NCBI GenBank assembly: GCA_035547835.1 | Contig: DASZTW010000019.1 | Location: forward strand, 62,001 to 126,000 | Direction: 5' to 3' | Length of the DNA stretch: 64,000 nucleotides | Source: Acidimicrobiales bacterium | Lineage (GTDB): Bacteria; Actinomycetota; Acidimicrobiia; Acidimicrobiales; Iamiaceae | In this document: one piece after another, positions 5,736 through 64,000 of the stretch | Layout of the letters: every line of letters starts with the position of its first letter | Position numbering within the stretch: the first letter of the stretch is position 1 | Made by a program: the position numbers and the translations under genes | Notes under the pieces: model-generated | What the model was told of the DNA's origin: nothing | Seen by the model: only the letters and a program-made list of their open reading frames with translations | Databases searched by the model: none

Positions 5736-5758
5736 CCGAATCCGAGGCAGATCCGAGC

Positions 5759-6064: not shown

Positions 6065-6070
6065 GAGACC

Positions 6071-6343
6071 ATGTCGAAGACCAAGGGCGGCGGTTCCACC
6101 CGGAACGGCCGTGACTCAGAAGCCAAGCGCCTCGGCGTGAAGGTCTATGCCGGCACCGAGATCAAGGCCGGCGCGATCATCGTGCGCCAGCGCGGCACCA
6201 AGTTCCACCCCGGCGACAACGTCGGGCGCGGCGGCGACGACACGCTGTTCGCCCTGGCGCCGGGCGTGGTCCGGTTCGGTTCCCGCAAGGGCCGCAAGCT
6301 GGTCAGCGTCGTACCGCACGACACGCCCGACAGCGGCGCCTGA
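6071..6343 (+). CDS. rpmA: 50S ribosomal protein L27
   Basis: The 90-residue protein has the bL27 hallmark [20 protein letters not shown] near the N-terminus and the [23 protein letters not shown] core. The N-terminal tail reaches the peptidyl-transferase centre. The start (MSKTKGGG) gives the mature-type N-terminus directly, without the cleavable extension known from staphylococcal L27. It is cotranscribed with rplU and ends in a hairpin shared with the convergent dgt gene. Confidence 0.97.
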
Positions 6344-6357
6344 CCCAGCCGTCAGGC
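6338..6357. terminator. Bidirectional hairpin between rpmA and dgt
   Basis: GCCTGAC (6338-6344) and GTCAGGC (6351-6357) form a 7-bp stem with a six-base loop that overlaps the stop codons of both convergent genes. Only eight bases separate the two genes, so this is the only available terminator space. Confidence 0.45.
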
Positions 6358-7461: not shown

Positions 7462-7467
7462 GCCTTC

Positions 7468-7473
7468 ACCTTA
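7468..7473 (-). promoter_or_regulatory. -10 element of dgt (leaderless type)
   Basis: Read on the minus strand, TAAGGT is followed by GAAGGC and then ATG. This is one of seven starts in the window with TAnnnT exactly six bases before the start codon, which places the transcription start at or next to the first codon. Confidence 0.55.
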
Positions 7474-7522
7474 CGAACCGCGTGTGACGATCGTGGGCGA
7501 CCTCCACTTCGCGACACGCCAC

Positions 7523-7528
7523 TAGCCT
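7523..7528 (+). promoter_or_regulatory. -10 element of obgE (leaderless type)
   Basis: TAGCCT is followed by TGAGCG and then GTG 7535. The same TAnnnT-N6-start arrangement appears at dgt 50 bases away in the opposite direction, so 7462-7534 is a divergent promoter region. No convincing -35 is visible. Confidence 0.5.
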
Positions 7529-7534
7529 TGAGCG

Positions 7535-9945: not shown

Positions 9946-9955
9946 GCGCCCTCAG
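9942..9955. terminator. Short hairpin between convergent proB and murJ
   Basis: CTGAG and CTCAG flank a CGCC loop and overlap both gene ends. The stem is only 5 bp, so this is a weak call based mainly on position in the six-base gap between convergent genes. Confidence 0.3.
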
Positions 9956-11613: not shown

Positions 11614-11717
11614 GGCTGGGTTCGCGCGGGGCCCAATGAAATGGATCGCGCGCTCGCGGTCTCTGCCGGTGGGGACGAGGGTAGATCGTCCAGGCGGAGG
11701 AGCCGGTGACCTACCGG

Positions 11718-11723
11718 TACCAT
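11718..11723 (+). promoter_or_regulatory. -10 element of proA (leaderless type)
   Basis: TACCAT, then GGCCAC, then GTG 11730. The exact six-base spacing supports GTG 11730 as the start rather than the in-frame GTG at 11706, which lies upstream of the -10. Confidence 0.5.
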
Positions 11724-11729
11724 GGCCAC

Positions 11730-12980: not shown

Positions 12981-13137
12981 GCCCGCAACCGCACGTTCGC
13001 ACCAGCGCCGGAACCGGATCTCCACCCTGTCCGGGTGCCGGGCGGTGTCGGTGATGCGTCCGACGAGGCCTTGCCGACCCTCTTCACGGTCAACTTGGCC
13101 AAGCGGTCCGCCGACACCTTCGTGGCACCGAACTGGA

Positions 13138-13168
13138 TTGACCGCCTGGTCAAGTGCGGCGATACGCT
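13138..13168 (+). promoter_or_regulatory. Promoter with 16-bp palindromic operator upstream of the MoxR-VWA operon
   Basis: TTGACC-GCCT-GGTCAA (13138-13153) is an inverted repeat with 6-bp arms. Its first half could also serve as -35. TACGCT (13163-13168) lies 19 bases on and is followed by six bases and ATG 13175. The same half-sites with N4 spacing occur in the promoter of the F420-dependent oxidoreductase at 38904-38919. A TetR-type regulator is a plausible binder but none is encoded in the window. The rest of 12981-13137 shows nothing I can support. Confidence 0.5.
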
Positions 13169-13174
13169 CGGCGG

Positions 13175-14098
13175 ATGCCACGCTTCGAGTCTGTCGACGC
13201 CGTCCGGGACGACCTGCGCAAGGTCGATTACCTCGCCGATGAGAGCATCGCGGGGATCGTTTACCTCGCCGACCGCCTCGGCAAGCCGGTGCTGGTCGAG
13301 GGCCCGGCAGGCACGGGCAAGACCCAGCTCGCGAAGTCGGTGGCCGAGATCACCGGCGCCCGTCTGATCCGCCTCCAGTGCTACGAGGGGCTCGATGAGT
13401 CGAAAGCGCTGTACGAGTGGAACTACAAGAAGCAGCTGTTGCGGATCCAGGCTGAGCGCGTGGTGTCCGGCGACGACGACGGCACCGAGTCGCACACGTG
13501 GACCGACATCGAGACCGACATCTTCTCCGACGAGTTCCTGCTCACCCGGCCGTTGCTGGAAGCCATCCGCGCCGACGAGCCGGTCGTGCTGCTGATCGAC
13601 GAAGTCGACCGAGTGGAAGTCGAGACCGAGGCGCTGCTGCTCGAGATCCTGTCCGACTACCAGGTCTCGATTCCCGAGCTCGGCACCATCACCGCGAAGC
13701 AGATCCCGTTGGTGTTCCTCACCTCCAACAACACCCGTGAGCTGTCCGAAGCCCTCAAGCGGCGCTGCCTGTTCTTGCACATCGACTATCCCGACATGGA
13801 CCGCGAGAAGCTCATCGTGGAGACCAAGGTCGAGGGCATCACCGAGTCGTTGGCCGACCAGGTCGCGCGCATCGTCCGGTCGATCCGTCAGCTCGAGCTG
13901 AAGAAGGCGCCATCGGTGTCCGAGACGCTCGACTGGGCCCGCACGTTGATGCTGCTCGGCATCGACCAGATCGACGCCGAGACCGCCACCAACACGTCGA
14001 ACATCTTGCTCAAGTACCAGAGCGATATCGCCAAGGCGGCCCGCGAGTTCGCGCAGGATGCGCAAGGCGCCAAGGCGTTCGCCCCCGGGCCCAAGTGA
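13175..14098 (+). CDS. MoxR-family AAA+ ATPase
   Basis: This 307-residue cytosolic AAA+ protein has Walker A GPAGTGKT (43-50), Walker B VLLIDEVD (~138-145), a sensor-1 region FLTSNNTRELSEALKRRC with the arginine finger, and a helical lid. MoxR ATPases act as chaperones with a VWA-domain partner, often for metal-cofactor or complex maturation. The stop overlaps the start of exactly such a VWA protein. ATG 13175 is supported by the -10 six bases upstream. The client complex cannot be named, and no oxidoreductase subunit gene is adjacent. Confidence 0.9.
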   Translation: MPRFESVDAVRDDLRKVDYLADESIAGIVYLADRLGKPVLVEGPAGTGKTQLAKSVAEITGARLIRLQCYEGLDESKALYEWNYKKQLLRIQAERVVSGDDDGTESHTWTDIETDIFSDEFLLTRPLLEAIRADEPVVLLIDEVDRVEVETEALLLEILSDYQVSIPELGTITAKQIPLVFLTSNNTRELSEALKRRCLFLHIDYPDMDREKLIVETKVEGITESLADQVARIVRSIRQLELKKAPSVSETLDWARTLMLLGIDQIDAETATNTSNILLKYQSDIAKAAREFAQDAQGAKAFAPGPK

Positions 14099-15642
14099 CC
14101 GACCAGCAAACGCCGGGCGACGGCGCGTCCGCCGATGGCGTGACCGTCGACCACGCAACGGCGGCGGTCGCCGTGGGCGAGCCGATTCTCGACCTCCTCG
14201 CCGGGTTCATCGGCGAGCTGCGCGAGGCCGGGCTGCCGGTCAGCCTCACCGAGAACCTCGACGCGATGGAGGCCGTCAAGCACATCCCGATCGAGGACCG
14301 TTCGGCGTTCAAGTACGCCCTCGCCGCCACCCTGGTGAAGAACAACGCGCACTGGCGCGCTTTCGAGACCGTGTTCGAGGTGTACTTCTCGTTGCGGGGC
14401 AAGGCCTGGGGCGTGGGCGACCTCGACGAAGCGCACGCGCTCGACGAGCTGCTCGACGACATGGAGGGCCAAGGCGAGGGCGACCAGGGCTCGTCGGGCT
14501 TCCAAGGTCAGGGCGGCGGCGACGCGCTGACGCCCGAGCAACTCGCCGAGCTGCTCTATCAGGCGTTGATGAGGGGCGACGACGCGCTCATGCGGGCGAT
14601 CGCTCGCCAAGCGGTGAAGCGCTTCGCCGGCATGGAGCCGGGCCGTCCCGTGGGCGGCACGTACTACCTGTACCGCACGCTGCGGAACCTCGATCTCGAC
14701 AACGTGCTCGACAAGCTGATGGACCAGACCCGTCGCCAGGCCGACGACGCGGGCACGCCGCTGAGCGCGCTCGAGGACCGCCTCGAGGCCGACGAGTACA
14801 AGTCGCGGATCGAAGCCTTGAAGAAGGAGATCGAAGCCGAGATCCGCCGGCGGCTGGTGGCAGACCGGGGTGTGGAGGCGATGGCGCGCACGTTGCGCAA
14901 GCCGCTGCCCGAGGACGTCGACTTCATGCACGCCAGCCGCGAGGAGATGGGCAACCTCCGCCGCGCGCTCGGCCCGCTCACCCGGCGTCTCGCTGTGCGC
15001 CTGGCCCGCAAACGGCGGCACGGTCGCAAAGGCCCGCTCGACTTCCGCTCGACGGTCCGTCACTCGCTCAGCTACGGCGGCGTGCCCGCAGATCCGCAGT
15101 TCCGCTACCCGCGCCCCTCGAAACCCGAGATCTTCGTCGTCGCCGACATCTCCGGGTCCGTCGCCGCATTCGCCCGCTTCACGCTGATGTTGGTGTACGC
15201 CATCTCCGGCCAGTTCTCGAAGGTCCGCTCCTTCGTGTTCATCGACGGGATCGATGAGGTCACGAGCTTCTTCGAAGGCGTCGAGGACGTCACCGAGGCG
15301 GTCCACCGGGTCAACACGGAAGCCGACGTCGTGTGGGTCGACGGCCACTCCGACTACGGCCATGCCTTTGAGGCGTTCTGGGAGCGGTGGGGCAAGGAAG
15401 TCAGCCCCAAGACCACGGTCTTGTTCCTCGGCGACGCCCGGAACAATTACCACGCGAGCCAGTCCTGGGTCGTCAAGGAGATCCAGCACAAGGCTCGCCA
15501 CGTCTACTGGCTGAACCCCGAGCCTCGCAGCTACTGGGACACGGGCGACTCGATCGTGGGGGAGTACGCCAACTTCTGCGACGGCACGTTCGAGTGCCGC
15601 AACCTGCGCCAGCTCGAAGCGTTCGTCGACCACCTCGCCTGA
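14095..15642 (+). CDS. VWA domain protein of the CoxE-like / MoxR-partner type
   Basis: This 515-residue cytosolic protein has an N-terminal helical region, then an acidic/Gln-Gly-rich linker (~120-140). A long helical middle with RLARKRRHGRKGPLDFRSTVRHS precedes the VWA fold. The MIDAS motif DISGS (351-355) begins the VWA domain and a later Gly-Asp-Ala-Arg segment follows. Proteins of this build pair with MoxR ATPases, with CoxD-CoxE as the known example in Mo-CO dehydrogenase maturation. Here no cox genes are present, so only the partner relationship is supported. GTG 14095 overlaps the moxR stop (GTGA). Confidence 0.87.
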   Translation: MTDQQTPGDGASADGVTVDHATAAVAVGEPILDLLAGFIGELREAGLPVSLTENLDAMEAVKHIPIEDRSAFKYALAATLVKNNAHWRAFETVFEVYFSLRGKAWGVGDLDEAHALDELLDDMEGQGEGDQGSSGFQGQGGGDALTPEQLAELLYQALMRGDDALMRAIARQAVKRFAGMEPGRPVGGTYYLYRTLRNLDLDNVLDKLMDQTRRQADDAGTPLSALEDRLEADEYKSRIEALKKEIEAEIRRRLVADRGVEAMARTLRKPLPEDVDFMHASREEMGNLRRALGPLTRRLAVRLARKRRHGRKGPLDFRSTVRHSLSYGGVPADPQFRYPRPSKPEIFVVADISGSVAAFARFTLMLVYAISGQFSKVRSFVFIDGIDEVTSFFEGVEDVTEAVHRVNTEADVVWVDGHSDYGHAFEAFWERWGKEVSPKTTVLFLGDARNNYHASQSWVVKEIQHKARHVYWLNPEPRSYWDTGDSIVGEYANFCDGTFECRNLRQLEAFVDHLA

Positions 15643-15667
15643 TCGTCCCTGCGTCCTGGTCGGACCT

Positions 15668-15683
15668 CGCCCCGGGCGGGGCG
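15668..15683. terminator. Hairpin between convergent VWA and lipoprotein genes
   Basis: CGCCCC and GGGGCG flank a GGGC loop in the 52-base gap between two convergent genes. The GC-rich stem without a T-run fits a bidirectional actinobacterial terminator. Confidence 0.45.
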
Positions 15684-15694
15684 CTCGGGCCGCG

Positions 15695-16885
15695 TCAGTG
15701 GCGCACGGCGCGGGTGACGACCTGGCTGGCCTCGCTCGGGCCGAACGTCGGAGGTTTCGGCTGCGCTTCGGCAGTGCCGAGCCGCACCACCACGGTCCGG
15801 GATCCCGGGTCGACTTGCACGAGCTGGTTGCCGAGGCCGAGTGCCCAGTACAGGTCGTCGGGCGCACCCGGCACGAGCTGGCCGCGGGCGGTGGTCGGGT
15901 TGGCCGCCGCAGCCAGGTTCGTCGCCGACAGCGGCCCGGCGAGCACCCCCTTGCGGTTCAGCCACCACAGATAGCCGTACGCGGCGTTGAGGGGTGTCGA
16001 TGGCTTCCCGGTCGACTCGGCCACCCACGACGACGACACGATCTGGCGGCTGCCCCACTTGCCGTCGCGCTGCACCATCAGCCCGAGCCGGGCCAAGTCC
16101 TCGCAGTTGGACTGCACGCCCTCGAAGGTCTGCGTGTTGCCGGCGCGGTCGGTGGTCATCCGGGTGTGCGCCATGCCGAGCGGACGGAACAAGCGTTGCT
16201 CGGCGAAGGTCGACACGTCCTCACCGGTCGCGCCTTGCAGGACCTGTTGCAAGGTCTGGATGGCGGAGTTGTTGTACGCCCACACCTGCCCCGGCGGGTG
16301 TTGCTGGGGCAGACCGATCGCGAACGCCGTACGGTCGCTCGACCGGATGAGCCGGACATAGTCGATGATGGGGCTCCATTCGCGACCCGAGTCGTTGCTC
16401 AGGAGGTCGCGGACGGTGACTTGGGTCGCCGCGGTGCCGCGCCACTCGGGGATCCACTTCGACGCGGAGTCGTCGATGTGCAGGTCGCCCTCGTCTTGTG
16501 CGATGCCGACGAGCAGGCTGGTGATCGACTTGGTGGCCGAGAAGATGTCCTGGGTCTGGGTGGCGGTCGTGCCGGCGAACTGCCATTCGCCGGCGATCGC
16601 TCCGTCGCGCTCGACCACCAGGCAGTGGGACTTGCCGACTTGCGCAGTGCGGGCGATGTCGTCGAGGACGGCGCCGTCGAGTCCAGCCTGCGCCGGAGCG
16701 ATGTGGCGCCAGGCGGACCCTGGGACGAGCTGGCCGCCGGGTGCCGTCGCGGTCGCGGGCGTGGTCGACGTCGACCCGTTCGCGTTTCCGCCCGAGCTGC
16801 TGCTGCACCCGCCGAGCACGACGAGGACCAGCAGGGCGCTCACCACGGCCACGGCCCCAGGGCGGTGCGGGATGCGTCGGCTCAT
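15695..16885 (-). CDS. Beta-lactamase-fold serine hydrolase lipoprotein
   Basis: This 396-residue protein has a signal peptide ending in lipobox VLGGC (Cys 27), so it is expected on the outer face of the membrane. The class C / AmpH-like fold is shown by the nucleophile motif SATK (Ser 116, Lys 119), the YNN motif (Tyr 204, Asn 206), and a C-terminal region with GYLWWLNRKG. Such proteins act as peptidases, esterases or DD-peptidases, and the substrate is not predictable. Upstream on the minus strand, TAGGGT (~16924-16929) is a possible -10 giving a leader of about 30 bases. It is monocistronic and convergent with the VWA gene. Confidence 0.88.
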   Translation of the reverse strand: MSRRIPHRPGAVAVVSALLVLVVLGGCSSSSGGNANGSTSTTPATATAPGGQLVPGSAWRHIAPAQAGLDGAVLDDIARTAQVGKSHCLVVERDGAIAGEWQFAGTTATQTQDIFSATKSITSLLVGIAQDEGDLHIDDSASKWIPEWRGTAATQVTVRDLLSNDSGREWSPIIDYVRLIRSSDRTAFAIGLPQQHPPGQVWAYNNSAIQTLQQVLQGATGEDVSTFAEQRLFRPLGMAHTRMTTDRAGNTQTFEGVQSNCEDLARLGLMVQRDGKWGSRQIVSSSWVAESTGKPSTPLNAAYGYLWWLNRKGVLAGPLSATNLAAAANPTTARGQLVPGAPDDLYWALGLGNQLVQVDPGSRTVVVRLGTAEAQPKPPTFGPSEASQVVTRAVRH

Positions 16886-16975
16886 GTACTTCGGCCCGCG
16901 GTGTCGACGACGAGGTCGCCTCGACCCTAGACCGTCCGGTCGACCCCCAGGTCGTCACCGCATTGACTCACCCAA

Positions 16976-17027
16976 CCCATTCCTGCTGTGAGCAGTTGAC
17001 CACCCTGGAGGTGGTCAACTGCTCACA
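16976..17027 (-). repeat. Dispersed hairpin repeat, copy 1
   Basis: Perfect 18-bp arms (16987-17004 and 17010-17027) surround a 5-base loop. Read on the minus strand the element is TGTGAGCAGTTGACCACC, loop, the complementary arm, then flank GCAGGAATGGG. The outer TGTGAGCAGTT / TGCTCACA and the flank match two copies near 56 kb, while the centre differs. It lies downstream of cysH and may act as its terminator, but the shared flank shows it is a repeated element, not a chance hairpin. Confidence 0.75.
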
Positions 17028-17102
17028 CCTCGGCCTTGGTGAGGCACCTCGGCCTTGGTGCGGCACGAAGGCCTGTGTGAAGTACCTCGGCCTGTGTGAA
17101 GT
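17027..17102. repeat. Four tandem copies of a 19-bp unit
   Basis: The unit ACCTCGGCCTTGGTGAGGC repeats four times with substitutions (17027-17045, 17046-17064, 17065-17083, 17084-17102), followed by a partial fifth ACCTCGG ending one base before the cysH stop codon. The first unit abuts the hairpin repeat. The period is not a multiple of three, so it does not encode a peptide repeat. Confidence 0.8.
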
Positions 17103-17109
17103 ACCTCGG

Positions 17110-17796
17110 TCATGCCAGGTGCAGGCCGCACTCCGTCTTGTCCTGGCCCCGCCAGCGACCCGCCCGGGGGTCTTCGCCGGGGGCCACGGGGGTCGTGCAC
17201 GGCTGGCAGCCGATGGACGGGTAGCCCTGGTGCACGAGCGGGTTGACCGGCACGTCGTGCTCGGCGATGTAGCCCGCGACGTCGTCGTCTGACCAGTTGG
17301 CAAGCGGGTTGATCTTGACGAGGCCCCGGATGTCGCGGGCGATGATCGGCGCCGAGGCCCGGCTGGGAGCCTCGATCCGCCGCAGGCCGCTCAACCAGGC
17401 GAGCTTGCCGGCGAGTGCACGGTCGAGCTGGCCCACCTTGACGGCCGAGCAGCACCCCTCGGGGTCCTTCTCCCACAGCGGCTCGTCGTGGCGGGCGACA
17501 GTCATCATCTTCAAGTTCAGCCCGTAGCGGCGCCGCACGAGCTCGACCGTCTCGAGCGTCTCGGGGAAGTGGTAGCCGGTGTCGATGAAGACGACCTCGA
17601 TCGCGGGATCGATCCGGGTGGCCAAGTCGATCAGCACCGCGTCGGTCATCGACGCAGACAGACACAGATGAGGGCTGAAACGGTCGACGGCCCACTGGAC
17701 GATCTTCGAGGCGGGCAGCAGGTCGAACTCGTTGTTCAGCTCGGCGAGGTCGCGGTCGTTCAGATCGAAGTCGAGGTGGGTTTCGGTCATCGCCAT
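17110..17796 (-). CDS. cysH: Phosphoadenylyl/adenylyl-sulfate reductase, [4Fe-4S] APS-reductase type
   Basis: This 228-residue enzyme reduces APS (or PAPS) to sulfite in the cytosol with thioredoxin. Four cluster cysteines are visible as CC (115-116) and CxxC (197, 200), the pattern of assimilatory APS reductases. The catalytic cysteine is in the C-terminal ECGLH (Cys 223). The CC motif is followed by SAVK, not the usual xxRK, a mild deviation. ATG 17796 gives the family N-terminus. Its start lies 19 bases downstream of the sulfite reductase stop on the same strand, so the two form one sulfate-assimilation operon. Confidence 0.93.
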   Translation of the reverse strand: MAMTETHLDFDLNDRDLAELNNEFDLLPASKIVQWAVDRFSPHLCLSASMTDAVLIDLATRIDPAIEVVFIDTGYHFPETLETVELVRRRYGLNLKMMTVARHDEPLWEKDPEGCCSAVKVGQLDRALAGKLAWLSGLRRIEAPSRASAPIIARDIRGLVKINPLANWSDDDVAGYIAEHDVPVNPLVHQGYPSIGCQPCTTPVAPGEDPRAGRWRGQDKTECGLHLA

Positions 17797-17815
17797 GTCC
17801 TGGGCTCCCTCGGGC

Positions 17816-19594
17816 TCACGCGCCGGCGCACTCGCCTTCACCGACCTCGCGCACATAGGGACCCGTCTCGGCGTAATCGACGTAGAAGTCGGGGTTCTCA
17901 TCGGGGGTCGGGAACTCGGCCAGGTCGGCGAGCTCCTCTTTGACGGCCTCCGGGCCGCCGACGCTCGCCAGCCACTCGGCAAACGTCTGACCGGCCACAC
18001 GCTCGCCGGCGAAGCGACCGATGATGCGCACGGCCGCCTCGGGTGCCGCTTTGGCCGGGAGCCGCATGGTGCGCTTGCCGAACTCGGCCTTGGTCTGGCC
18101 GACGTAGCCGCCGAGGAGCAGCTGGTAGCCCGGGGCGCTGCGGCCGTGGGCCCGACGCTCGGCGCCGTGGAAGCCGATGTCGGCGGTGTGGTGCTGGCCG
18201 CACGAGTTCGTGCAGCCCGAGATGTTGGTGCGCACCCCGCCGACTTCGCCGAGGCCGGCAGCCTCGAGGGCCACGCCGATCGCGTCGGCGAGCCCGCGGG
18301 ACTGGGTCTCGGCCAGGTTGCAGGTGTCGGCGCCGGGGCAGGCGACCACGTCGCGCGCGAGCTCGGCGCCGGGTTCGGCCATGCCGATGGCTTCGAGTCG
18401 CTCGTACAGGTCCGGGAGCTGGCCTTCGCTGAGGCCGCGGTACACGAGGTTCTGGCGGTTCGTGATGCGGGCTTCGGCGGCGAAGTCACGTTGGATCGCA
18501 GCGAGACCGCGGAACTGGTCGGCGGTCACGTCGCCGAGGCGCGACCAGGCGTAGGCGGACACGGTGCCGTTGGCCCGACCACGCACCACGTTGGCCTCGT
18601 CCCACCGCTGGCGGGGGTCGCGGGCTGTGATGGTGACCGGCGTGCCCTGCCCCATGGGCGTGACCTCGATCTGGCTGGATCCGCCGGCGGGGGTGTCGCC
18701 GTACTTCTCGACGATCTCCGGGACCCCGCCGGGCCAGGTCGACGAGGCGATGAGCAGCTTGCGCTCCTTGAGGATCCGCTGCTGCAGCTCCTCCCAGCCC
18801 ATGGTCTTGACGAGCCACTTCATGCGGGCGCGGAGCTTGTTGTCGCGGTTGCCGTAGTGGTCGAAGGTGCGGACGACGGCTTCGATGGTGGGCAGGAGCT
18901 GGTCGCGTGGCGTGAAGTCCTCGAGCGCGAGGGCCGGGAACGGGTTGGCGCCGAGACCACCTGCCACGAAGACACGGAACCCGGCCTCGACCGTGCCATC
19001 TGGGTGGGTGTGGTTGGTGGCGACCACGCCCACGTCGTTGAACATGGCCTGGCCGCAGTCGGTGTCGCAGCCTGAGAAGTTGATCTTGAACTTGCGCGGC
19101 ATGCGTTGGCAGATCGGGTTGTGCAGGAAGTACTGGAACGTGGCCTCGGCCCACGCCGAGATGTCGAGCACCTCGTTGGGGCAGGCACCGGCCAAGTGGC
19201 AGCCCTGCACGTTGCGGACGGTGTCGCCGCACGCCTCTCGGCTGGTGAGCCCGACGCGAGCGGCCTCGCGGAGCAGTGCGGGCACCCGCTCGAGCTGCAC
19301 GAAGTGGAACTGGACGTTCTGGCGGGTGGTGAAGTGACCCCAGCCCCGCGAGTACTCCTCGGCGATGTGGCCGAGCATGTCGAGTTGTTCGGCGCTGGCG
19401 TTCCCGTACGGGAACTTCAGCCGGACCATCTGGTTGTGGCCCTTCTGGCGCTGGCCGTAGATCCCGTTGTTCAGGCGGAAGATCCGGAACTGGTCCTCGT
19501 CGAGGTCCCCGGCGAGGTACTGATCGAGCAGGGTCTCGAACTTCGCGATGTCGGCGGCGATGGCCGGATCGATCGTGTCGCGTTCCAACAACAT
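17816..19594 (-). CDS. sir: Ferredoxin-dependent sulfite/nitrite reductase
   Basis: This 592-residue siroheme enzyme has two nitrite/sulfite reductase half-domains. [4Fe-4S]-siroheme ligands are seen as CPGADTC and NISGCTNSCGQH in the C-terminal half. The N-terminal half has FTTRQNVQFHFV, the siroheme-side motif. Pairing with cysH immediately downstream makes sulfite reduction to sulfide the likely role rather than nitrite reduction. The start at 19594 (MLLERDTI) is the most upstream sensible ATG. cysD, cysN and cysC are not in the window, so the activation genes must lie elsewhere. Confidence 0.9.
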   Translation of the reverse strand: MLLERDTIDPAIAADIAKFETLLDQYLAGDLDEDQFRIFRLNNGIYGQRQKGHNQMVRLKFPYGNASAEQLDMLGHIAEEYSRGWGHFTTRQNVQFHFVQLERVPALLREAARVGLTSREACGDTVRNVQGCHLAGACPNEVLDISAWAEATFQYFLHNPICQRMPRKFKINFSGCDTDCGQAMFNDVGVVATNHTHPDGTVEAGFRVFVAGGLGANPFPALALEDFTPRDQLLPTIEAVVRTFDHYGNRDNKLRARMKWLVKTMGWEELQQRILKERKLLIASSTWPGGVPEIVEKYGDTPAGGSSQIEVTPMGQGTPVTITARDPRQRWDEANVVRGRANGTVSAYAWSRLGDVTADQFRGLAAIQRDFAAEARITNRQNLVYRGLSEGQLPDLYERLEAIGMAEPGAELARDVVACPGADTCNLAETQSRGLADAIGVALEAAGLGEVGGVRTNISGCTNSCGQHHTADIGFHGAERRAHGRSAPGYQLLLGGYVGQTKAEFGKRTMRLPAKAAPEAAVRIIGRFAGERVAGQTFAEWLASVGGPEAVKEELADLAEFPTPDENPDFYVDYAETGPYVREVGEGECAGA

Positions 19595-56029: not shown

Positions 56030-56095
56030 ACGCTTCGTGCTGTGAGCAGTTAGCCACCGTATACGTGCTCAAGTGCTCACAGCAGGGATGGGGAA
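56030..56095 (+). repeat. Dispersed hairpin repeat, copy 3
   Basis: A near-exact direct repeat of 55936-56001 (one G-to-C change in the centre). Arms are at 56038-56048 and 56074-56084. The tandem pair fills the intergenic space between hemW and the carboxyltransferase gene. Confidence 0.87.
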
Positions 56096-56150
56096 TGGGG
56101 GAGAGCGGCGGATTCGACAGGCCGGGTCGGGGCTTGTGACGGTACCGGGT

Positions 56151-57536
56151 ATGGAGCTGCCGCCCCTGGTCGAGGAATGGGACCGTGACTTGCGCAGCGG
56201 GGACCCGCTCGGATTCCCCGGCTATGCCGCGGTGCTCGACGAGATGGCCGAGGAGTCGGTTCGGACTGGCCGCACGCAGCACGTTGTGGTCATCGAAGGT
56301 CGCTTCGAGGTGCTGGGTGGTTCGATGGGCGTGGTTGCGGGCGAGAAGGTGTGCCGGGCCTACGACCGGGCCGTCGACGCGCGGCTGCCGGTGGTGGTGG
56401 TCACCCGCTCGGGCGGCGCACGGATGCAAGAGGGCATGGTGAGCCTGATCCAGATGGGTCGCACAGCTGCCGCCGCGCGTCGCCACGCCCGCGCCGGGTT
56501 GCTGTCGGTGGCCCTGCACCGCTCGCCGACCACCGGCGGGGTGTTCGCCTCGTACGGCTCGCTGTGCGACGTGCGGGCGGTCGAAGCCGAGGCGACCATC
56601 GGTTTCGCCGGACCGCGGGTGGTCGCGCAGACCACCGGCACCGAGGTAGGCGGTCGCTCGCACACCTCGGCGACCGCGTACGCCGCCGGCCTGGTCGACG
56701 CGGTGGTGGCGCCGCACGACGCGTGGGCGTGGGTGGAGGCGGCGCTGGGCCACGGCGACGCACCGCTGGTGCTGGGCCCGCGCGGGGTCGCACCCACAGA
56801 TGTCGAGCCTCCGGCTGCGGGCGCGTGGGGTGAGGTGCAGCGCGCCCGGGGCGCCTCACGCCCCACCGGCATCGAGGTCGCAGCCGAGCTGTGCCGGTCG
56901 TGGACCGACTTGCACTCCACCGACCCGGTCACCCGCGCGGGCCTTGCGTCGATCGGCGACCGCCGGGTGGTCGTGATCGCGCACGACCGCAAGGCGGGCG
57001 ACGGCCGCTCTCGCCCGGACGGGTTCCGCCTCGCACAGCGGGCCATCGACCTGGCAGGACGTCTGGCGCTGCCGCTTGTCACGCTGATCGACACGCCGGG
57101 CGCCGATCCCTCGTCGGATGCCGAGCTGCACGGCGTGGCCGGCGAGATCGCCCGCACGTTCGCGGCGTTGGCCGAACTTCCGACCGCGAGCGTGGCGGTC
57201 TGCGTCGGCGAGGGGGGCAGCGGGGGAGCGCTGGCGCTCGGCCACACCGACCGGCTGCTGATCCAGGAGCACGCCGTCTTCTCGGTGATCGGCCCCGAGG
57301 GCGCTGCGGCCATCCTCGAGCGCGACGCCGGCAAGGCTGCCGCGGTAGCTCCCAAGCTCCGGCTCACGAGCGGCGACCTGCTCGAGCTCGGCATCGTCGA
57401 CGCGGTGGTGCCCGACACCACCGCCGCGGTCATCGACGCGGTCAGCCGTGCCCTCGACGAGGCCCAGCCCGGCGATCGCGCGCGACGCACCGACGCGGCG
57501 TCGGCGCTCGCCTTGTCGGACCGGGTGGTCCCGTAG
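56151..57536 (+). CDS. Fused acetyl-CoA carboxylase carboxyltransferase (AccD-AccA type)
   Basis: This 461-residue protein contains two crotonase-like carboxyltransferase halves. The first (residues ~1-210) is AccD-like: VVVIEGRFEVLGGSMGVVAGEK and VVVVTRSGGARMQEGM, seen as TRSGGARMQEG. It lacks the AccD zinc finger. The second (~240-440) is AccA-like: IDTPGADPSSDAE, VCVGEGGSGGALALGH and EHAVFSVIGPEGAAAIL. It should transfer the carboxyl from biotin to acetyl-CoA for fatty acid synthesis. Biotin carboxylase and BCCP genes are not adjacent. ATG 56151 is used; GTG 56136 is possible. Confidence 0.87.
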   Translation: MELPPLVEEWDRDLRSGDPLGFPGYAAVLDEMAEESVRTGRTQHVVVIEGRFEVLGGSMGVVAGEKVCRAYDRAVDARLPVVVVTRSGGARMQEGMVSLIQMGRTAAAARRHARAGLLSVALHRSPTTGGVFASYGSLCDVRAVEAEATIGFAGPRVVAQTTGTEVGGRSHTSATAYAAGLVDAVVAPHDAWAWVEAALGHGDAPLVLGPRGVAPTDVEPPAAGAWGEVQRARGASRPTGIEVAAELCRSWTDLHSTDPVTRAGLASIGDRRVVVIAHDRKAGDGRSRPDGFRLAQRAIDLAGRLALPLVTLIDTPGADPSSDAELHGVAGEIARTFAALAELPTASVAVCVGEGGSGGALALGHTDRLLIQEHAVFSVIGPEGAAAILERDAGKAAAVAPKLRLTSGDLLELGIVDAVVPDTTAAVIDAVSRALDEAQPGDRARRTDAASALALSDRVVP

Positions 57537-57603: not shown

Positions 57604-58617
57604 TCAGTCGATCGGCGGCAGCTCGAACTCCTGGCCGGGGAAGATCAGCTCGGGGTGCCCCGGCCGCGCGAGGCGACCGGCGTTGGCGGCGACCAGCTTC
57701 GGCAGGTAAGTGGCGACTTCGCCATCGGACGGAGCATGGCCCCTCGTCCACTCGAGGACGTGTTGGGCGATCGACCACAAGCTGTCGCCGGGCCGCGTGG
57801 TCCACAGCGGCGGCGCGGTGGTGGGAGCGGCCCTCTCCTCAGGGTCACCTGGCGCGTCAGCGGGCGACCCTTTCGGCCTCGGCCCTCGGGGAGGACTCGT
57901 CCGTCGGAGCGACGCGGTGCCCAAATCCGGGGGTGCAGGCGCGGCGGTGGTTTCCGGCGCACTTCCGGCCGTGGCCGGTGGTCGGGAAGTGGTCGGTGGG
58001 TTGGGTGCGGGCGCCGTGGTGGCATTTGGCGCGGAGGGTTCGATGGTCGTCGGTGGCGTGGTGGTCGGAGCAGCCGGTCGGGAGGGCGTCGTGGGCTCCT
58101 CGTCGACCGCCGGCAGGCGTCGCAGGGCTGCCGTGCCGGAGTCACCAGCGGTGATCCGTCGCTGCTCTGCCTGCGGTGTGCCAACAGCGCCTGCTGCCGG
58201 ACGCGGTTGCTGCCCGTGTCCCTGGGCGGGGGGCGTGGGCGCAGCGGATGCTGGCGCGACGGCGAGCGCGCTGGCCACGAGGGTTGCTCCTGCGACGGCG
58301 GTCATGGCGCGGCGCAGCAGCGGCAGCGTCACCAGGTCGGCTACCCGGGCGAGGGGCTGGCTGCGGCTGCCCGCTGCGGCGAGGTGGGCCACGCACACCA
58401 CCAACACGTACCAACCCGCGACCAGCGCGACGAGTCGCACCAGCGCGAACGCCATCGTCGCCGGGTCACGCGCGGCGGCCCAGCGGCCGAGCTGTCCGGG
58501 GTGAAGGAGCGGCGGGGCGGCGAGGGCCGCTCCACCCAAGCGGTGCAGCGCCGCGACCAGCAGTGCGAGGGCGACTGCGCAGCCGGCCAACCGGTGGAGG
58601 CGGTGGTTGGCGCTCAC
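57604..58617 (-). CDS. Membrane protein with C-terminal LysM domain
   Basis: This 337-residue protein has three predicted N-terminal helices (~10-28, 55-80, 105-122), a long Pro/Thr/Ala-rich linker, and a C-terminal LysM module (TTRPGDSLWSIAQHVLEW, then PGQEFELPPI) that should bind peptidoglycan. It is the last gene of the pilus-linked minus-strand cluster. Its GTG start overlaps the pseudokinase stop (GTGA), so the two are made together. LysM-BTAD-type proteins are often encoded beside Tad loci in actinobacteria; here there is no BTAD domain. Confidence 0.8.
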   Translation of the reverse strand: MSANHRLHRLAGCAVALALLVAALHRLGGAALAAPPLLHPGQLGRWAAARDPATMAFALVRLVALVAGWYVLVVCVAHLAAAGSRSQPLARVADLVTLPLLRRAMTAVAGATLVASALAVAPASAAPTPPAQGHGQQPRPAAGAVGTPQAEQRRITAGDSGTAALRRLPAVDEEPTTPSRPAAPTTTPPTTIEPSAPNATTAPAPNPPTTSRPPATAGSAPETTAAPAPPDLGTASLRRTSPPRGPRPKGSPADAPGDPEERAAPTTAPPLWTTRPGDSLWSIAQHVLEWTRGHAPSDGEVATYLPKLVAANAGRLARPGHPELIFPGQEFELPPID

Positions 58618-60170
58618 GGCGTCGGGACCGCAACGGGCTGGTTCCTGGGACGGGTGGCGTACAGCGTGTCGCAATTGCCGTGGTGCTCGACCCTGAGCCC
58701 ATCGGCACCGTCGACCTGCGCGGTGGCCGGCACGACGACGGGATGGTCGCCGGCCCAAGACGAGAACACGAAGACCTCACCCGTCGTCGGGCGAAGCAGT
58801 GCCGGCGTGACCTGACCGGTGCAGTTCCACGATCCGAGAACCAACTGATCACCCGGGCGACCCACCTCGAACTGAGCATCGCCCGCTGTGACCCGACGTC
58901 CGCTGACGAGCACCGCCTCGCCGCAGCCGTCGTGGTCGAGATCGACAGCCGGCGCTCGCACCGTCGGGCAGCGCCCGGTGGCCACGTGGGCGGGGCGCGA
59001 GCGGGACGGCGTGGCGGCCGTTCGCACGGAGGTGGGTCGCGTCGACCGGGTGAGGCGTTGCGACGGCGGCGCGGCCGTGGCAGCTCGCAGCCCCATGAGC
59101 CCGAACGCGATCAGCGCCGCACCGGCCAGGGCGGCCGCCGCATGGACCCCGGCCCCTCCACGGATCAAGAGTCGACGTCGGGTGTTCGGGGGCCGGGGTG
59201 GCTCCACGTGCTCGGGTGGACGCTCGTCGTGCTGCGACGGGAGTTCGTGGTCGACCACTGCGTGCAGCGGCCCCGCGCCCCGCTCGACCACGCCCCACAA
59301 CGCCTCCCACCGCGCGTCGTCGTCGCTCAGCACGCCCTCGGCCGTCGCGCTCGCAACGACGTCCGACCTGCCCTGCGGCTCGACCCGCTCCAGCGAGGTG
59401 GCATTGTCCGTGGGTGCGCTGGCAGGCCCGGCCGAGGTCGTGTCATCGGGCGGTGCTGATGCCGGTGCCTCGGTGTCGAGATGCGTCAGGACCGCGCCGA
59501 CCGGCGGGGTCCGTGCACCTTCATCGGCGTCGGCGATCAACCGGGCATCGGGGATGGTCGTTGCCAGGCTGCGCGCGAGCTGGCGGGCGCTCGGCCGATG
59601 GTCGGGTTCGGCCGTGGCCTGGTCGGCCAACATCAACATCGCACGTAGTCGGTAGCCATGCCACCGCTTGTCGCGCCGCTTCAGTCGCCGATCGGGGATG
59701 GGCTCTAGCTCCCCGTCGGTGCCGACCAACTCGTTGAGGAGGCGGCCCAGCGCCCACACATCTTGGGCTCGATCGGCGGGATCGGTCGACGCGTCGCCGA
59801 GCCCGCACAACACCGGCCGCCCATCGGGTGCCACCACCACGTGGGTGGCGTCGATGCGAGTGTGGGCGAGCCCTGCGTCGTGCAGGTCGGCAACGGTGTG
59901 CGCCAAGGCGGCGACCACGCCCGCCGCCTCCTCCACCCGGCCCGGCCGTGTGCCGGCGAGACAGCGCGAACCGGCCCAGCGCTGCCGGAGCTCTGCCCGG
60001 CCGGCCTCCTCGGTGAACGAACGCAGCTCGACCACGCCGGGGTGGGCGATTGCCGTCAGCAACTCGGCCTCCCGCCGCAATCGGTCGCGTCCTGCTGCCG
60101 TGGTGGCGGTCTTCACCAGCGCGAGTCCGTCGCCATCGACGCCTACGGATGACACTACGTCACATGGCAT
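58614..60170 (-). CDS. Membrane pseudokinase with extracytoplasmic DxDxDG domain
   Basis: This 518-residue protein has an N-terminal kinase-like domain: Lys 20 (LALVK) and a Glu in the next helix are present. The catalytic HRDxxxxN loop reads HTRIDATH (103-110), and the DFG position reads CGLGDA (122-127), so both catalytic aspartates are missing. After a Pro/Thr/Ser linker comes one membrane helix (~342-364) and an outside domain with DLDHDG (410-415), a Ca-binding-like repeat. It is coupled to the LysM gene and lies just downstream of the Tad cluster. A sensor or scaffold for pilus or wall is inferred. Confidence 0.78.
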   Translation of the reverse strand: MPCDVVSSVGVDGDGLALVKTATTAAGRDRLRREAELLTAIAHPGVVELRSFTEEAGRAELRQRWAGSRCLAGTRPGRVEEAAGVVAALAHTVADLHDAGLAHTRIDATHVVVAPDGRPVLCGLGDASTDPADRAQDVWALGRLLNELVGTDGELEPIPDRRLKRRDKRWHGYRLRAMLMLADQATAEPDHRPSARQLARSLATTIPDARLIADADEGARTPPVGAVLTHLDTEAPASAPPDDTTSAGPASAPTDNATSLERVEPQGRSDVVASATAEGVLSDDDARWEALWGVVERGAGPLHAVVDHELPSQHDERPPEHVEPPRPPNTRRRLLIRGGAGVHAAAALAGAALIAFGLMGLRAATAAPPSQRLTRSTRPTSVRTAATPSRSRPAHVATGRCPTVRAPAVDLDHDGCGEAVLVSGRRVTAGDAQFEVGRPGDQLVLGSWNCTGQVTPALLRPTTGEVFVFSSWAGDHPVVVPATAQVDGADGLRVEHHGNCDTLYATRPRNQPVAVPTP

Positions 60171-60176
60171 CACACA

Positions 60177-60204
60177 AAACTACATGAAAATACATGCACG
60201 TGCA
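60177..60204 (-). promoter_or_regulatory. AT-rich promoter of the pseudokinase-LysM unit
   Basis: On the minus strand TAGTTT (60182-60177) is followed by TGTGTG and ATG 60170. Upstream lie a repeated TACATG (60181-60186 and 60191-60196) and a 10-bp palindrome TGCACGTGCA (60195-60204). The stretch 60171-60210 is much lower in GC than its surroundings. The unit thus has its own promoter apart from the Tad genes. Confidence 0.5.
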
Positions 60205-60213
60205 CAAGTGACA

Positions 60214-60648
60214 TCAGCTCGACAGCGCCGTCACTCGTACGGTCGCTCGGACGGTCGCCGTGTGCGACACGCCCGGAACGATCGGTGCGAACACGAGGCG
60301 CACCGTGCGCCGGAGGCGAACCGAGGCCGAGCGACCATCGGTTGTGATCGCCACGTCCTCGACGGTCGCGTCGTCGATCCCGTCGCGGTGCAGGACGCGG
60401 AGGATCGTGGCCGCGACAGACCGGCGGTCGAGGCGCACCTCGCCCTGCCCGAGCAGCGCGCCCCGGTCGAGGCCGACCTCGCTGGCGTCGTTCGACGCGT
60501 CGCCGGCAGCCGCGACCAGGTTCCGCTGGGCGGTGAATGCCACCGCAGCATCGACCGCGATGGCGCCGAGGATGATCACGATCAGCACGGCGGCCGGCAT
60601 CAGCAACAAGACCGTGCCCGCGTCGCGCCGCCGCGCCCGGTCAGGCAC
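60214..60648 (-). CDS. TadE/TadG-like pilus assembly protein (small)
   Basis: This 144-residue protein has a short Arg-rich N-terminus, one hydrophobic segment (GTVLLLMPAAVLIVIILGAIAVD), and an extracytoplasmic domain. It fits the TadE/G pseudopilin-like pattern (RRDAG then a helix). It overlaps the previous gene by eight bases. It is probably a minor pilin of the Flp system. Sequence conservation in this family is low, so the call leans on the hydrophobic pattern and the locus. Confidence 0.7.
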   Translation of the reverse strand: MPDRARRRDAGTVLLLMPAAVLIVIILGAIAVDAAVAFTAQRNLVAAAGDASNDASEVGLDRGALLGQGEVRLDRRSVAATILRVLHRDGIDDATVEDVAITTDGRSASVRLRRTVRLVFAPIVPGVSHTATVRATVRVTALSS

Positions 60649-61129
60649 AGGTTCCCTCCGCAGTACCGCCGGATCGGTAGGCGTCGATCACCTCGGAGTG
60701 GGTGGAGCCAACAGTGAAGCCGTGTCCGAAGCCGCCGATGTACGGCAACGACAACGCAGGCACCCGATATCGCGCAGTGATCGTGACGCGGCCGCATCGT
60801 TCGTAGGCGGGGTCCAGGGTGCGGGTGAGGTCGAGCCGGGTGCCGTCCCGACCTTGGGCCGACGCGGCATCGCGGCCGCGTCGCTGCGCGTCGGCCCAAC
60901 TCGCCGCGGGGTCGGGCCAGTCCTCGACATACGCGCGAGCGGCCTCCCGCGAGGCAGCGTCTGCAGCGAGCTTGGCGTCGATCACCGCCCAGGCATTGGT
61001 GATCAACAGCACGCCGACCACGAACACGAGGATCCCGAAGGGGATGGCCTCGATGCCCGCGACCTGCCCGGCGTCCCCGCGCAGCTGTCGGCCCCGCGGC
61101 GGGCGACGTCCGACCTCGGGCGCGGTCAC
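60641..61129 (-). CDS. TadE-like pilus assembly protein
   Basis: This 162-residue protein has a 27-residue basic/polar N-terminus, then GIEAIPFGILVFVVGVLLITNAWAVIDAK, a TadE-type transmembrane segment, and an outside domain containing DAASREAARAYVED, the typical helix after the membrane anchor. It is in a four-base overlap with the upstream TadE-like gene. Confidence 0.72.
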   Translation of the reverse strand: MTAPEVGRRPPRGRQLRGDAGQVAGIEAIPFGILVFVVGVLLITNAWAVIDAKLAADAASREAARAYVEDWPDPAASWADAQRRGRDAASAQGRDGTRLDLTRTLDPAYERCGRVTITARYRVPALSLPYIGGFGHGFTVGSTHSEVIDAYRSGGTAEGTCA

Positions 61130-61557
61130 GGCTGAGGCTCCTCCAGCCGGACCGTGACCGTGCGGTCGATGTGGTCGACGAGCAAGGGCGAGCTGACACC
61201 GGCAAGTCCGATGCGAGGGTTGTCGACGGTCACACGCAGACGCACCACTTCGCCGTCTGTGGACCAGTGAAAGCGCACCCGCGAGCCGTAGCGGCCGAGC
61301 GCCGATCGAGCTTCGGTCTCCGCCGTCGCCTGCGCACTCGCGAAGGAGCCGCGGTGGTCAGCGGCCACGCGGCGGGCGGCATCGTAGGCCGTGGCGGTCA
61401 CGACGGATCGAGCGTAGAGATCGAACATCACCTGCACAGCGAACAGCAGCAGCACCAGCACGACGACGAGACCGAACCACGTGCCGAACAAGCCCGCGCC
61501 CTGATCGCCGCGGCCTCGACACGGCGATCGCCCGTGGATCGCGGCCGGCGCTCGCAA
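61126..61557 (-). CDS. TadE-like pilus assembly protein
   Basis: This 143-residue protein shows RGDQGAGLFGTWFGLVVVLVLLLFAVQVMFDLY, seen as a GAG motif before a long hydrophobic helix, then VVTATAYDAARRVAAD. This is the TadE helix-turn pattern. It directly follows the small pilin-like gene by six bases. A minor pseudopilin role is likely. Confidence 0.75.
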   Translation of the reverse strand: MRAPAAIHGRSPCRGRGDQGAGLFGTWFGLVVVLVLLLFAVQVMFDLYARSVVTATAYDAARRVAADHRGSFASAQATAETEARSALGRYGSRVRFHWSTDGEVVRLRVTVDNPRIGLAGVSSPLLVDHIDRTVTVRLEEPQP

Positions 61558-61796: not shown

Positions 61797-62705
61797 TCAC
61801 GCGGAGGAGAACAAGCGGAGGGCTTCGATGAAGGGGACGGCGAGGAAGATGACGCCGGGGACGAGCGTGGCGACGGTGACGGGGATCCAGACCTGCTGGG
61901 CGCGGCGTTCGAGCTCCTCGACCCGGCGTCGTTGCACTTCTTGGCGAATCGAGCGCGCTTCGCGGGACATGACCCGGCCGAGGTCCGAGGTGGCGCGGTT
62001 GAGCGACAGCACTTGCACCACCTGGCGCACCTCGGGCACGGCGGCCAGGTCGGCCCACTCCGTGAGCGCTTCCGCCTCGCCGAGTCCTTGCCGGATCCGG
62101 TTGGCGACGCGGGTGAGGTCTTGTGCCACCGCGCCTCGACCGCGGTGGGCGACCCGTCCGAGCGCGCCCCCGAGGGAGTGTCCCGCGGACAGGAGCATGC
62201 CGATCTGTTCGCACACGACCGGGAGCTCGAGCAGGAGGTTGCGCTGCCACCTCGTCGAGGCGGCGGCCAGGCCTTGCTCGATCACCAAGAACGCGAGGAG
62301 CGGGGCAGCCACGATCGCGGCCAGCGCGACCAGTGGTGGCGGCCGGACCGCGACGCTCGCGGCAGTGGCGAGGGCGAACGCCGCAGCAGCCCACCCGGCC
62401 TGTCGAACCCGGAAGGTCATGGGATCGAGCGGTGAGTGGATGCGCATGAGACGGACGGTGAGGGGCTCTTCGACGCCCAAGGCGCGCGCCAGGCGTCCGC
62501 CCACGTCGGTTGCCAACGGCGCGACGACCTCGCGAACCGAGCCGACCGAGAGCAGGCCAGGTGCGCTGCTGGTCGGCGCGCCGGGCTGGTAGGGGCGTAG
62601 CCGCTCGGACAACGAGCGACGCGCGAACCATCGCACGCGCGACAACAGCAACGAGCAGCCGGCCCACATCGCGAGCCCGGCGACGGCGAGGAGCCGCGTG
62701 TTCAT
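61797..62705 (-). CDS. tadC: Tad pilus inner-membrane platform protein TadC
   Basis: This 302-residue type II secretion F-domain protein has an N-terminal helix, paired central helices, the T2SF segment (LLELPVVCEQIGMLLSAGHSLGGAL, seen as EQIGMLLSAGHSLGGAL), RQVVQVLSLNRATSDLGRVM, and a final helix VTVATLVPGVIFLAVPF. It overlaps tadB by four bases (ATGA). ATG 62705 gives MNTRLLAVAG with a clear membrane start; the longer in-frame upstream region is antisense to nothing but within tadB. Confidence 0.87.
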   Translation of the reverse strand: MNTRLLAVAGLAMWAGCSLLLSRVRWFARRSLSERLRPYQPGAPTSSAPGLLSVGSVREVVAPLATDVGGRLARALGVEEPLTVRLMRIHSPLDPMTFRVRQAGWAAAAFALATAASVAVRPPPLVALAAIVAAPLLAFLVIEQGLAAASTRWQRNLLLELPVVCEQIGMLLSAGHSLGGALGRVAHRGRGAVAQDLTRVANRIRQGLGEAEALTEWADLAAVPEVRQVVQVLSLNRATSDLGRVMSREARSIRQEVQRRRVEELERRAQQVWIPVTVATLVPGVIFLAVPFIEALRLFSSA

Positions 62706-63583
62706 TCTGCGAACACCCGTCCTTCCACGGGCACTTGCATGATCCGGCCGGCCCACCACCAACAACCCGCCACCACGCCGATGCCGATCAGCACGGCGAC
62801 TTGTCCCGCAGCCGTCGCGTACGCGGCTCGCCCTGTCCCCACCGAGAGACCGGCCAGCGCCATGCCGAGCGGCACGAGGAGCACGAAGCGACGGGCGAAT
62901 CTGGCACCGGCCTGGCGGGCGCGGGCATCCTTGCGTCCCTGCACCTCTTGGAGCCGGTCGCCGCTCAAGGCGGTGAGCCGGGCCTCGAGGCCGGTGCCGC
63001 CCAGTTCGTTCGCGACGAGGATCGTCTCGCAGGCAGCGTCGCAAGTGGGGTCGGCGAGGTCGCGCTTGAGCACGCCGAGCGTGCGTGCGAAGTCCGTCGA
63101 GAGCAGCCATTCACGTTGTGCGGCAGCGAATGCGGGTCGCAGCTCCGCAGGTGCGCGACGACCCACTTCGAAGAGCGCTTGCGGGATGGAAAGGCCGGCC
63201 GAGCCGGTGAGGATGCGCAGCTCGTCGATCATCGTGGGCCACGCCTCCTGGGCCCGCTCGAGCCGCCGACGCCGACGTGAACGCAAGGTCGCCGCGGGCA
63301 GCATGGCCGTGAACGCGCCGAGGGCAACCGCCGCCAAGATGCCGCCGAAGATCGCGAACCCGAGGACACCGCCGAGCAGCAGGAGCAACAGCGAGGCCGC
63401 GGCGAACTGCGGAAGGCCGACCCCGCTCACCCCGGCTTCGCGCAGCCACCGTGTGACGTCGCGCCGCGGCGCAGGCGGCGTGACCTGCGGGCCCGGACCG
63501 AGCCCACGCCAGCGGAAGACGACGGCGGTGTACAGAAGGTGGACGCCGTAGGCGGCGGCGAGGGCGACGAGAAGTGCCGTCAC
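62702..63583 (-). CDS. tadB: Tad pilus inner-membrane platform protein TadB
   Basis: This 293-residue T2SF-domain protein has two N-terminal helices, a cytoplasmic segment LERAQEAWPTMIDELRILTGSAGLSIPQAL, seen as WPTMIDELRILTGSAGLSI, then ETILVANELGGTGLEARLTALS, and two C-terminal helices. With TadC it forms the membrane platform driven by TadA. GTG 63583 overlaps the tadA stop (GTGA). Confidence 0.88.
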   Translation of the reverse strand: MTALLVALAAAYGVHLLYTAVVFRWRGLGPGPQVTPPAPRRDVTRWLREAGVSGVGLPQFAAASLLLLLLGGVLGFAIFGGILAAVALGAFTAMLPAATLRSRRRRRLERAQEAWPTMIDELRILTGSAGLSIPQALFEVGRRAPAELRPAFAAAQREWLLSTDFARTLGVLKRDLADPTCDAACETILVANELGGTGLEARLTALSGDRLQEVQGRKDARARQAGARFARRFVLLVPLGMALAGLSVGTGRAAYATAAGQVAVLIGIGVVAGCWWWAGRIMQVPVEGRVFAE

Positions 63584-64000
63584 CGTGCGACCTGCGAGGT
63601 CGTGTCGACGATCTCGCGAACGTGGAGCCCGGCCTGGTCGAAGAGCAGGCCGAGCCGGTTCGGGATCTCGCCCGTCCAGCGCAGCATCCCGTCGCTGCCC
63701 GTCCGACGGAACACGTCCGTGATCGTGAACGGTACGGCGTCGAGGCTCCCGGCGTGATCCTCGACGGCGATGATCTCGTTGATCCGTGGGCCTTCTGAGG
63801 TGCGGACACTGTGGACGACAAGGTCGACGGCCTCGGCGACGAGTGAGTTGAGTGCGGCCAGCGGCAAGTCGCCGTCGGCGAGCTGCGCCACGAACCGAAG
63901 ACGAGTCAACGCTTGACGGGCCGAGCCGCCGTGGATCGTGGTGAATCCCTTCACGCCGGATGAGAGCGTGAGCAACAGTGCGAGGGCTTCGCGGTCGCGG
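63580..64000 (-). CDS. tadA: Tad pilus ATPase TadA/CpaF, C-terminal fragment
   Basis: This is the C-terminal ~140 residues of a VirB11-like secretion ATPase; the 5' part is beyond the window. GVKGFTTIHGGSARQALTRLRF matches the His-box GxxxTxHANSxxxALxRL of CpaF, here with GG instead of AN. EAVDLVVHSVRTSEGPRINEIIAVED is the following conserved strand block. Its position directly ahead of tadB and tadC is the standard Tad order. Confidence 0.87.
   Translation of the reverse strand, partial: RDREALALLLTLSSGVKGFTTIHGGSARQALTRLRFVAQLADGDLPLAALNSLVAEAVDLVVHSVRTSEGPRINEIIAVEDHAGSLDAVPFTITDVFRRTGSDGMLRWTGEIPNRLGLLFDQAGLHVREIVDTTSQVAR

Follow-up and report, generated by a model that had tools for sequence, protein, structure and literature searches.

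The window studied here, a stretch of 64,000 nucleotides from the genome of an Acidimicrobiales bacterium, encodes a membrane protein, which we call KIN, that is a pseudokinase as judged from its motifs and modeled fold, and its gene is followed by that of a membrane protein with a putative C-terminal LysM domain. The two genes lie 3' of a Tad pilus locus, and we posit, with a probability of roughly one half, that their products form an envelope module associated with Tad, with KIN acting as a scaffold or sensor and the LysM protein as a wall anchor. The control of Tad pili and their passage through the thick monoderm wall are poorly known, and a conserved pseudokinase/LysM pair beside pilus genes is a concrete candidate for both.

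An earlier note, made from the letters of this DNA, placed the pair at the correct coordinates and strand (table 1) and described a stop/start overlap between the two genes, which is the tetranucleotide GTGA. KIN starts at the ATG at 60170 (alternative start, GTG at 60173), stops at 58614–58616, and consists, in order, of a kinase-like domain, a linker, one transmembrane helix, and an outside half-propeller. The open frames of its orthologs rule out a frame artifact. Upstream of KIN, in transcription order, are cpaB, tadZ, tadA, tadB, tadC, flp, and three tadE-like genes, on the same strand as the earlier note had it; TadA, TadB, TadC, TadZ, Flp, TadE, and CpaB are all encoded together in a locus that is completed just past the window edge. 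The gene 3' of the LysM gene, at 56073–57536, is convergent and carboxyltransferase-like.

Table 1. Coordinates of the pseudokinase/LysM pair, its promoter elements, and the adjacent Tad genes in the window.
Feature	Coordinates	Strand	Basis or remark
KIN, membrane pseudokinase, 518 aa	58614..60170	-	ORF, translation, family profile, orthologs
Pseudokinase domain, residues 1-212	59535..60170	-	AF2 pLDDT 90.8, PknB match, motif census
Single membrane helix, residues 341-359	59094..59150	-	Hydropathy
Outside domain, residues 401-518	58617..58970	-	Putative FG-GAP-like half beta-propeller, two conserved Cys
GTGA overlap, KIN stop/LysM start	58614..58617	-	Sequence
LysM protein, 337 aa	57604..58617	-	Start codon GTG 58617
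LysM domain, residues 274-331	57625..57798	-	Putative; Pfam PF01476 score below cut-off, family alignment
-10 hexamer TAGTTT, 6 nt before ATG	60177..60182	-	Sequence; position conserved in family
Possible -35 TTGTGC, spacer 19	60202..60207	-	By eye
TadE3-like minor pilin	60214..60648	-	Position and conservation
TadE2-like minor pilin	60641..61129	-	Position and conservation
TadE1 minor pilin	61126..61557	-	Pfam TadE 19.2 bits (cut-off 22.9); position
Flp-type pilin, 66 aa	61564..61764	-	Position, size, one membrane helix
TadC (T2SSF)	61797..62702	-	Pfam 4.1e-13
TadB	62702..63583	-	Position and conservation
TadA, C-terminal part	63580..64000	-	Rest of gene, tadZ, and cpaB past window edge

Domains of KIN and the LysM Protein

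Pfam recognizes the kinase domain of KIN with a score of just 15.3 bits; a profile of the KIN family recovers structurally characterized kinases with E values as low as 3e-12. Structure prediction, proposed in the earlier note for both globular domains, yields a confident kinase fold for the first of them. This bilobal AF2 model has as its top PDB match Mycobacterium tuberculosis PknB (Z 19.8 over 190 residues, 3.0 Å). The alignment begins at about residue 20 of PknB, so the domain lacks its first strand and most of its Gly-loop.

The ATP-site lysine was said to be retained and both catalytic aspartates lost, and the sequence bears this out. KIN of the window keeps the β3 lysine (Lys20, in GLALVKT) as well as the αC glutamate (Glu34), the HRD aspartate is replaced by Arg105 (HTRIDATH), and the DFG aspartate is replaced by Gly123 (CGLGDA). 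Further losses that the earlier note did not mention are the catalytic-loop asparagine, which is His110, and the Gly-loop and activation segment, which are absent; 13 residues separate the DFG position from αF, compared with 32–41 in intact relatives. A census of 40 pseudokinases across the class reveals the same pattern. The αC glutamate, the HxD histidine, and the histidine in place of the catalytic-loop asparagine are each present in 40 of 40 sequences, and the HRD aspartate is kept in four and missing in 36 (arginine in 23). The DFG aspartate is found in 0 of 40, the position being occupied by glycine (34) or serine (6), and the β3 position holds lysine in 33, arginine in three, and a gap in four. 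The distance from the DFG position to αF has a median of 15 residues, the range of 32–41 applying to those intact relatives in which it is cleanly measurable. In a phylogenetic tree, 41 pseudokinase rows form one clade (support 100/98) that is separate from all intact kinases.

Based on these motifs and on the model, KIN is a pseudokinase, a kinase fold predicted to be inactive through loss of its catalytic residues. That it might still be an active enzyme by some unusual route is very improbable: Lys20 and Glu34 are kept, the HRD aspartate persists in 4/40 sequences, and two loci outside the census (L147 and L191) have an aspartate at the DFG position, set against a window protein that lacks the HRD aspartate, the asparagine, the DFG aspartate, the Gly-loop, and the activation segment. 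The fold appears to be maintained rather than decaying, since three positions are fixed in 40/40 sequences, and we give hardly any credence to a functionless remnant; fast divergence and the long branches in the tree would be expected of one, unlike the invariant residues, the intact frames, and a promoter conserved across the group.

The single membrane helix of the earlier description is present, as is the outside DxDxDG domain (motif DLDHDG). The helix is preceded by RRRLLIR, which places the kinase side inside. A second FG-GAP-type repeat in the outside domain is better conserved (GSWNCTG in KIN of the window, GDWDCDG in relatives), and Pfam FG-GAP_3 matches the domain in 8/16 relatives. 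Its AF2 model is also confident (pLDDT 92.6). A profile search of the PDB with this domain gave no significant match, and a Foldseek search of the PDB with the model gave none under E 0.001; a second look with VIA-align laid the model on half of ITFG2/BBS9-type propellers (Z 8.8–8.1, 3.5–4.0 Å). We interpret the domain, with moderate confidence, as an FG-GAP-like half-propeller. It stands in the place of PASTA repeats, for which KIN has no Pfam match.

The second protein of the pair is, as had been described, a three-helix membrane protein, with helices predicted from hydropathy at about residues 7–28, 58–77, and 104–125, followed by a Pro/Thr-rich linker and the putative LysM domain at the C-terminus. 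The domain in the window protein scores 18.2 bits against PF01476, below the cut-off of 20.9, and Pfam LysM matches are found in 6 of 13 relatives (best E 1.4e-5). In most orthologs, a short repeated motif (GTATMRV, GTAALRR, VVLERLPD) is found in the linker that joins the third helix to the LysM domain, perhaps a strand-forming interaction motif.

Linkage of the Pair to One Type of Tad Locus

The gene order cpaB–tadZABC–flp–tadE1-3–KIN–LysM is found in nearly all loci of the family that are not cut by a contig end, and among the named family members are Aquihabitans sp. G128 and Actinobacteria bacterium IMCC26207. KIN and cpaB are divergently oriented in five loci. Homologs of KIN were detected by scanning genome contigs with an alignment; a scan with the single KIN sequence gave none. 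As the earlier note had suggested, we surveyed co-occurrence in related genomes, taking tadA of this type at E under 1e-90 and KIN by either of its domains. Among 248 genomes of the order, 79 have both genes, 19 have tadA only, 38 have KIN only, and 112 have neither, an odds ratio of about 12 that is not corrected for phylogeny. Where KIN and tadA share a contig (45 genomes), they are at most 20 kb apart in 42, mostly 4–5 kb; in the other three the distances are 57, 60, and 343 kb, and KIN stays at its lepA-side site. Together with the distribution in the phylum sample described below, the co-occurrence and the 42/45 adjacency rule out mere chance neighbors.

The KIN site has a second anchor, a hemW–xre–rsmE–dnaJ–hrcA–lepA neighborhood. 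About sixteen genomes, including whole marine clades, have KIN at the lepA–hrcA–dnaJ site and no orthologous tadA that we could find, their best T2SSE match having about 40% identity or less. In total, this tadA was not found in 38 of 117 KIN genomes, some of which are drafts. Many of the Tad-less loci show no LysM partner next to KIN. In two genomes (G288 and G290), the LysM protein follows Tad without KIN. Among the partners of this Tad type, the LysM family is the most constant. The link is not obligatory, since whole clades retain KIN but not this Tad and one locus has an apparent tad deletion; the Tad attachment proposed in the earlier note is strong for one Tad subtype, and it fails as an obligatory one in the Tad-less clades.

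The apparent deletion is in locus L039 (genome G009, about 2610–2722, reverse strand), where about codon 24 of tadA is joined to the start of KIN; tadA–tadE3 and the KIN promoter are gone, and KIN and the LysM gene are kept. This join appears to be either a natural tad deletion or an assembly error. In another locus (L041, genome G011), about 5 kb is inserted between tadZ and tadA, at about 5028–10242 in transcription orientation.

About 43 nt separate the last tadE gene (60214) from KIN, and the hexamer TAGTTT lies in this gap. The earlier note proposed that the pair has its own leaderless promoter, and comparison backs this proposal. In 14/18 KIN family genes, a TAnnnT element precedes the start codon by 5–8 nt (mostly 6); 1.4 genes are expected, and at most five had this placement in any of 300 block shuffles. 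The recurrence of this arrangement makes the leaderless promoter well supported. A sigma-70 scan called no promoter upstream of KIN, the leaderless type falling outside the consensus of the scan. By eye, a possible -35 of the form TTGTGx with a spacer of 17 is seen in several relatives. Upstream of KIN (window 60177–60210), many relatives have a TTGTGnTGTTTcATG-like stretch between the -35 and the -10, which is possibly the site of a regulator.

The Tad-less loci and the separate promoter are also what would be expected under the chief rival to a Tad-associated module, in which the pair serves envelope homeostasis in general, much as MviN or the PASTA kinases do, and works without Tad, with which it would share only a chromosomal neighborhood. 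The retention of KIN at the lepA–hrcA–dnaJ–rsmE site in Tad-less clades agrees with this explanation, and there is a precedent in MviN, a pseudokinase that regulates peptidoglycan synthesis (PMC12599244). We consider it less likely, because association with a single Tad subtype, by both co-occurrence and adjacency, is strong in two classes that differ in gene order, and because in many Tad-less loci KIN has no visible LysM neighbor.

A Second Class and the History of the Association

In a phylum-wide sample of 246 genomes, tadA of this type is confined to the order (three genomes) and two families of a second class (ten genomes). All ten of the latter have the three-helix LysM protein, which in the stretches read is either beside cpaB or after the tadE genes. 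In five of the ten, a membrane Ser/Thr kinase adjoins the LysM gene in divergent orientation, and four of these five kinases have an outside domain of the KIN type. The kinase of G531 (L231) has HRDVTPGN, GDFG, and an activation segment of normal length, that of G413 (L235) has HRDVKPAN and ADLG, and that of G471 (L233) has HRDVTPGN and ADFG with no match to the outside domain. The kinases of G422 and G492 are partly degenerate (HGHVKPAN/ADFG and HGGLKPAN/ADLG, respectively).

Relatives that retain HRD and DFG had been named in the earlier note as evidence against its proposal. They do exist outside the pseudokinase clade, some of them Tad-linked and with the same outside domain. The class-wide census (HRD aspartate missing in 36/40, DFG aspartate in 40/40) supports KIN as a genuine, conserved pseudokinase. 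Because the other class has this Tad type, the LysM protein, and a kinase in which HRD and DFG are in some cases intact, the loss of catalysis probably took place on the branch of Acidimicrobiia, to judge from the sequences. The simplest history is that the association of Tad, LysM protein, and kinase is older than the class and that catalysis was then lost in Acidimicrobiia. A related kinase may instead have been recruited separately, since in the tree the sister group of the pseudokinase clade is not formed by the Tad-linked kinases of the other class. The intact counterparts provide a natural kinase-to-pseudokinase transition inside one gene neighborhood.

Three further loci, L204 (G294:C207), L120 (G288), and L099 (G293:C48), encode Ser/Thr kinases that look intact and share the half-propeller outside domain of KIN; these kinases are not Tad-linked, yet their genomes also carry this Tad type. 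Those of L120 and L204, from two Acidimicrobiia genomes, group with three Tad-linked kinases of the other class (support 93/91). Such unlinked kinases could suggest that KIN works via a separate intact kinase that phosphorylates its linker or domain and so regulates the pilus. We regard this explanation as improbable, as the genome of the window has one protein only with this outside domain; general Ser/Thr kinases are still possible partners.

Proposed Function and Related Systems

For the Tad-associated module that we favor, we envisage a catalytically dead membrane kinase homolog whose outside half-propeller would sense or bind a target, either within the wall space or on the pilus itself, and whose cytoplasmic domain may be a switchable docking platform for partners, for example a Tad motor or localization protein, or a phosphoprotein. 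The LysM protein would tie the complex to peptidoglycan where the pilus passes the wall, and the leaderless promoter would uncouple expression of the pair from the long tad operon. We infer the sensing, docking, and wall anchoring, as well as a physical link to the pilus, from these features, the coupling to the pilus coming from genomic linkage only. Given that the module recurs class-wide and that an apparently working kinase is found there in another class, it resembles an undescribed pilus signaling or anchoring unit. A bolder and more tentative proposal is a kinase-fold checkpoint of the Tad pilus, in which a Tad-linked membrane kinase bearing a half-propeller sensor would work with a LysM wall anchor; the kinase would be enzymatic in one class and converted to a pseudokinase at the equivalent locus in another, pilus control having moved from phosphorylation to docking.

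Several known systems share parts of this architecture. MviN (Rv3910) and its family ActPs3 (PMC12599244; PDB 3UQC) have, like KIN, an actinobacterial pseudokinase domain with degraded motifs, an activation-loop deletion, in many members a membrane helix that follows the domain, and a proposed role as a scaffold; the MviN pseudokinase recruits FhaA once PknB has phosphorylated its tail (PMC12599244). The family is defined by full degradation of the canonical catalytic motifs, including the β3 lysine (PMC12599244), and KIN falls outside this definition because the lysine is kept in the window protein and in most of the 40 sequences. KIN also differs in its FG-GAP-like outside domain, the lack of a flippase fusion, and its linkage to Tad, and MviN is not among the fold matches listed for the kinase-domain model. 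The pseudokinase families reviewed in PMC12599244 are described with neither an FG-GAP-like outside domain nor a Tad context. EssB of T7SSb, a pseudokinase, and TscD of T7SSc, with a conserved kinase active site, are components of type VII secretion variants (PMC11217815) and, like KIN, are bitopic kinase-fold parts of a machine that are a pseudokinase in one lineage and have a kinase site elsewhere. The machine in the case of KIN is the Tad pilus, and neither Pfam nor NCBIfam gives KIN a match to the EssB/YukC family at E values of 1 or less. The PknB-type membrane Ser/Thr kinases of Actinomycetota, with PknB itself the best structural match, share the layout of kinase, transmembrane helix, and wall-facing domain; KIN differs from them in being catalytically dead by prediction, in having a half-propeller instead of PASTA repeats, and in its LysM partner protein. 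We found no report of such a pseudokinase/LysM pair in the open-access literature, nor any bacterial pseudokinase family described there with an outside domain or genomic context like those of KIN, and a description elsewhere is possible.

The LysM protein has its own parallels. In a Propionibacterium acnes plasmid Tad locus, a LysM-BTAD protein (PAGK_2369) is tabulated after the TadE genes (PMC3666418), and by this published description it is, like the window protein, a LysM protein 3' of TadE genes; the window protein differs in being short and ending at its LysM domain. A tblastn search of plasmids with the window protein gave a single weak match, to a Pseudomonas LysM protein. Three-helix LysM proteins are also found near other, divergent Tad loci. 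The genome of the window (G000) has a second, divergent Tad locus on contig C5 (L251; tad genes at 15029–18667, minus strand), with a 1320-aa ORF at 9337–13299 (minus strand) that contains membrane helices and LysM and shares the three-helix LysM layout of the window protein. The C-terminal end of this ORF resembles a winged-helix/BTAD regulator by eye, with no Pfam call for BTAD. At L117 (10222–10590, plus strand) and similar loci, which lack the LysM protein, its place after KIN is taken by a short one-helix protein whose repeats resemble SITEIGPAP/SISDIGAVP.
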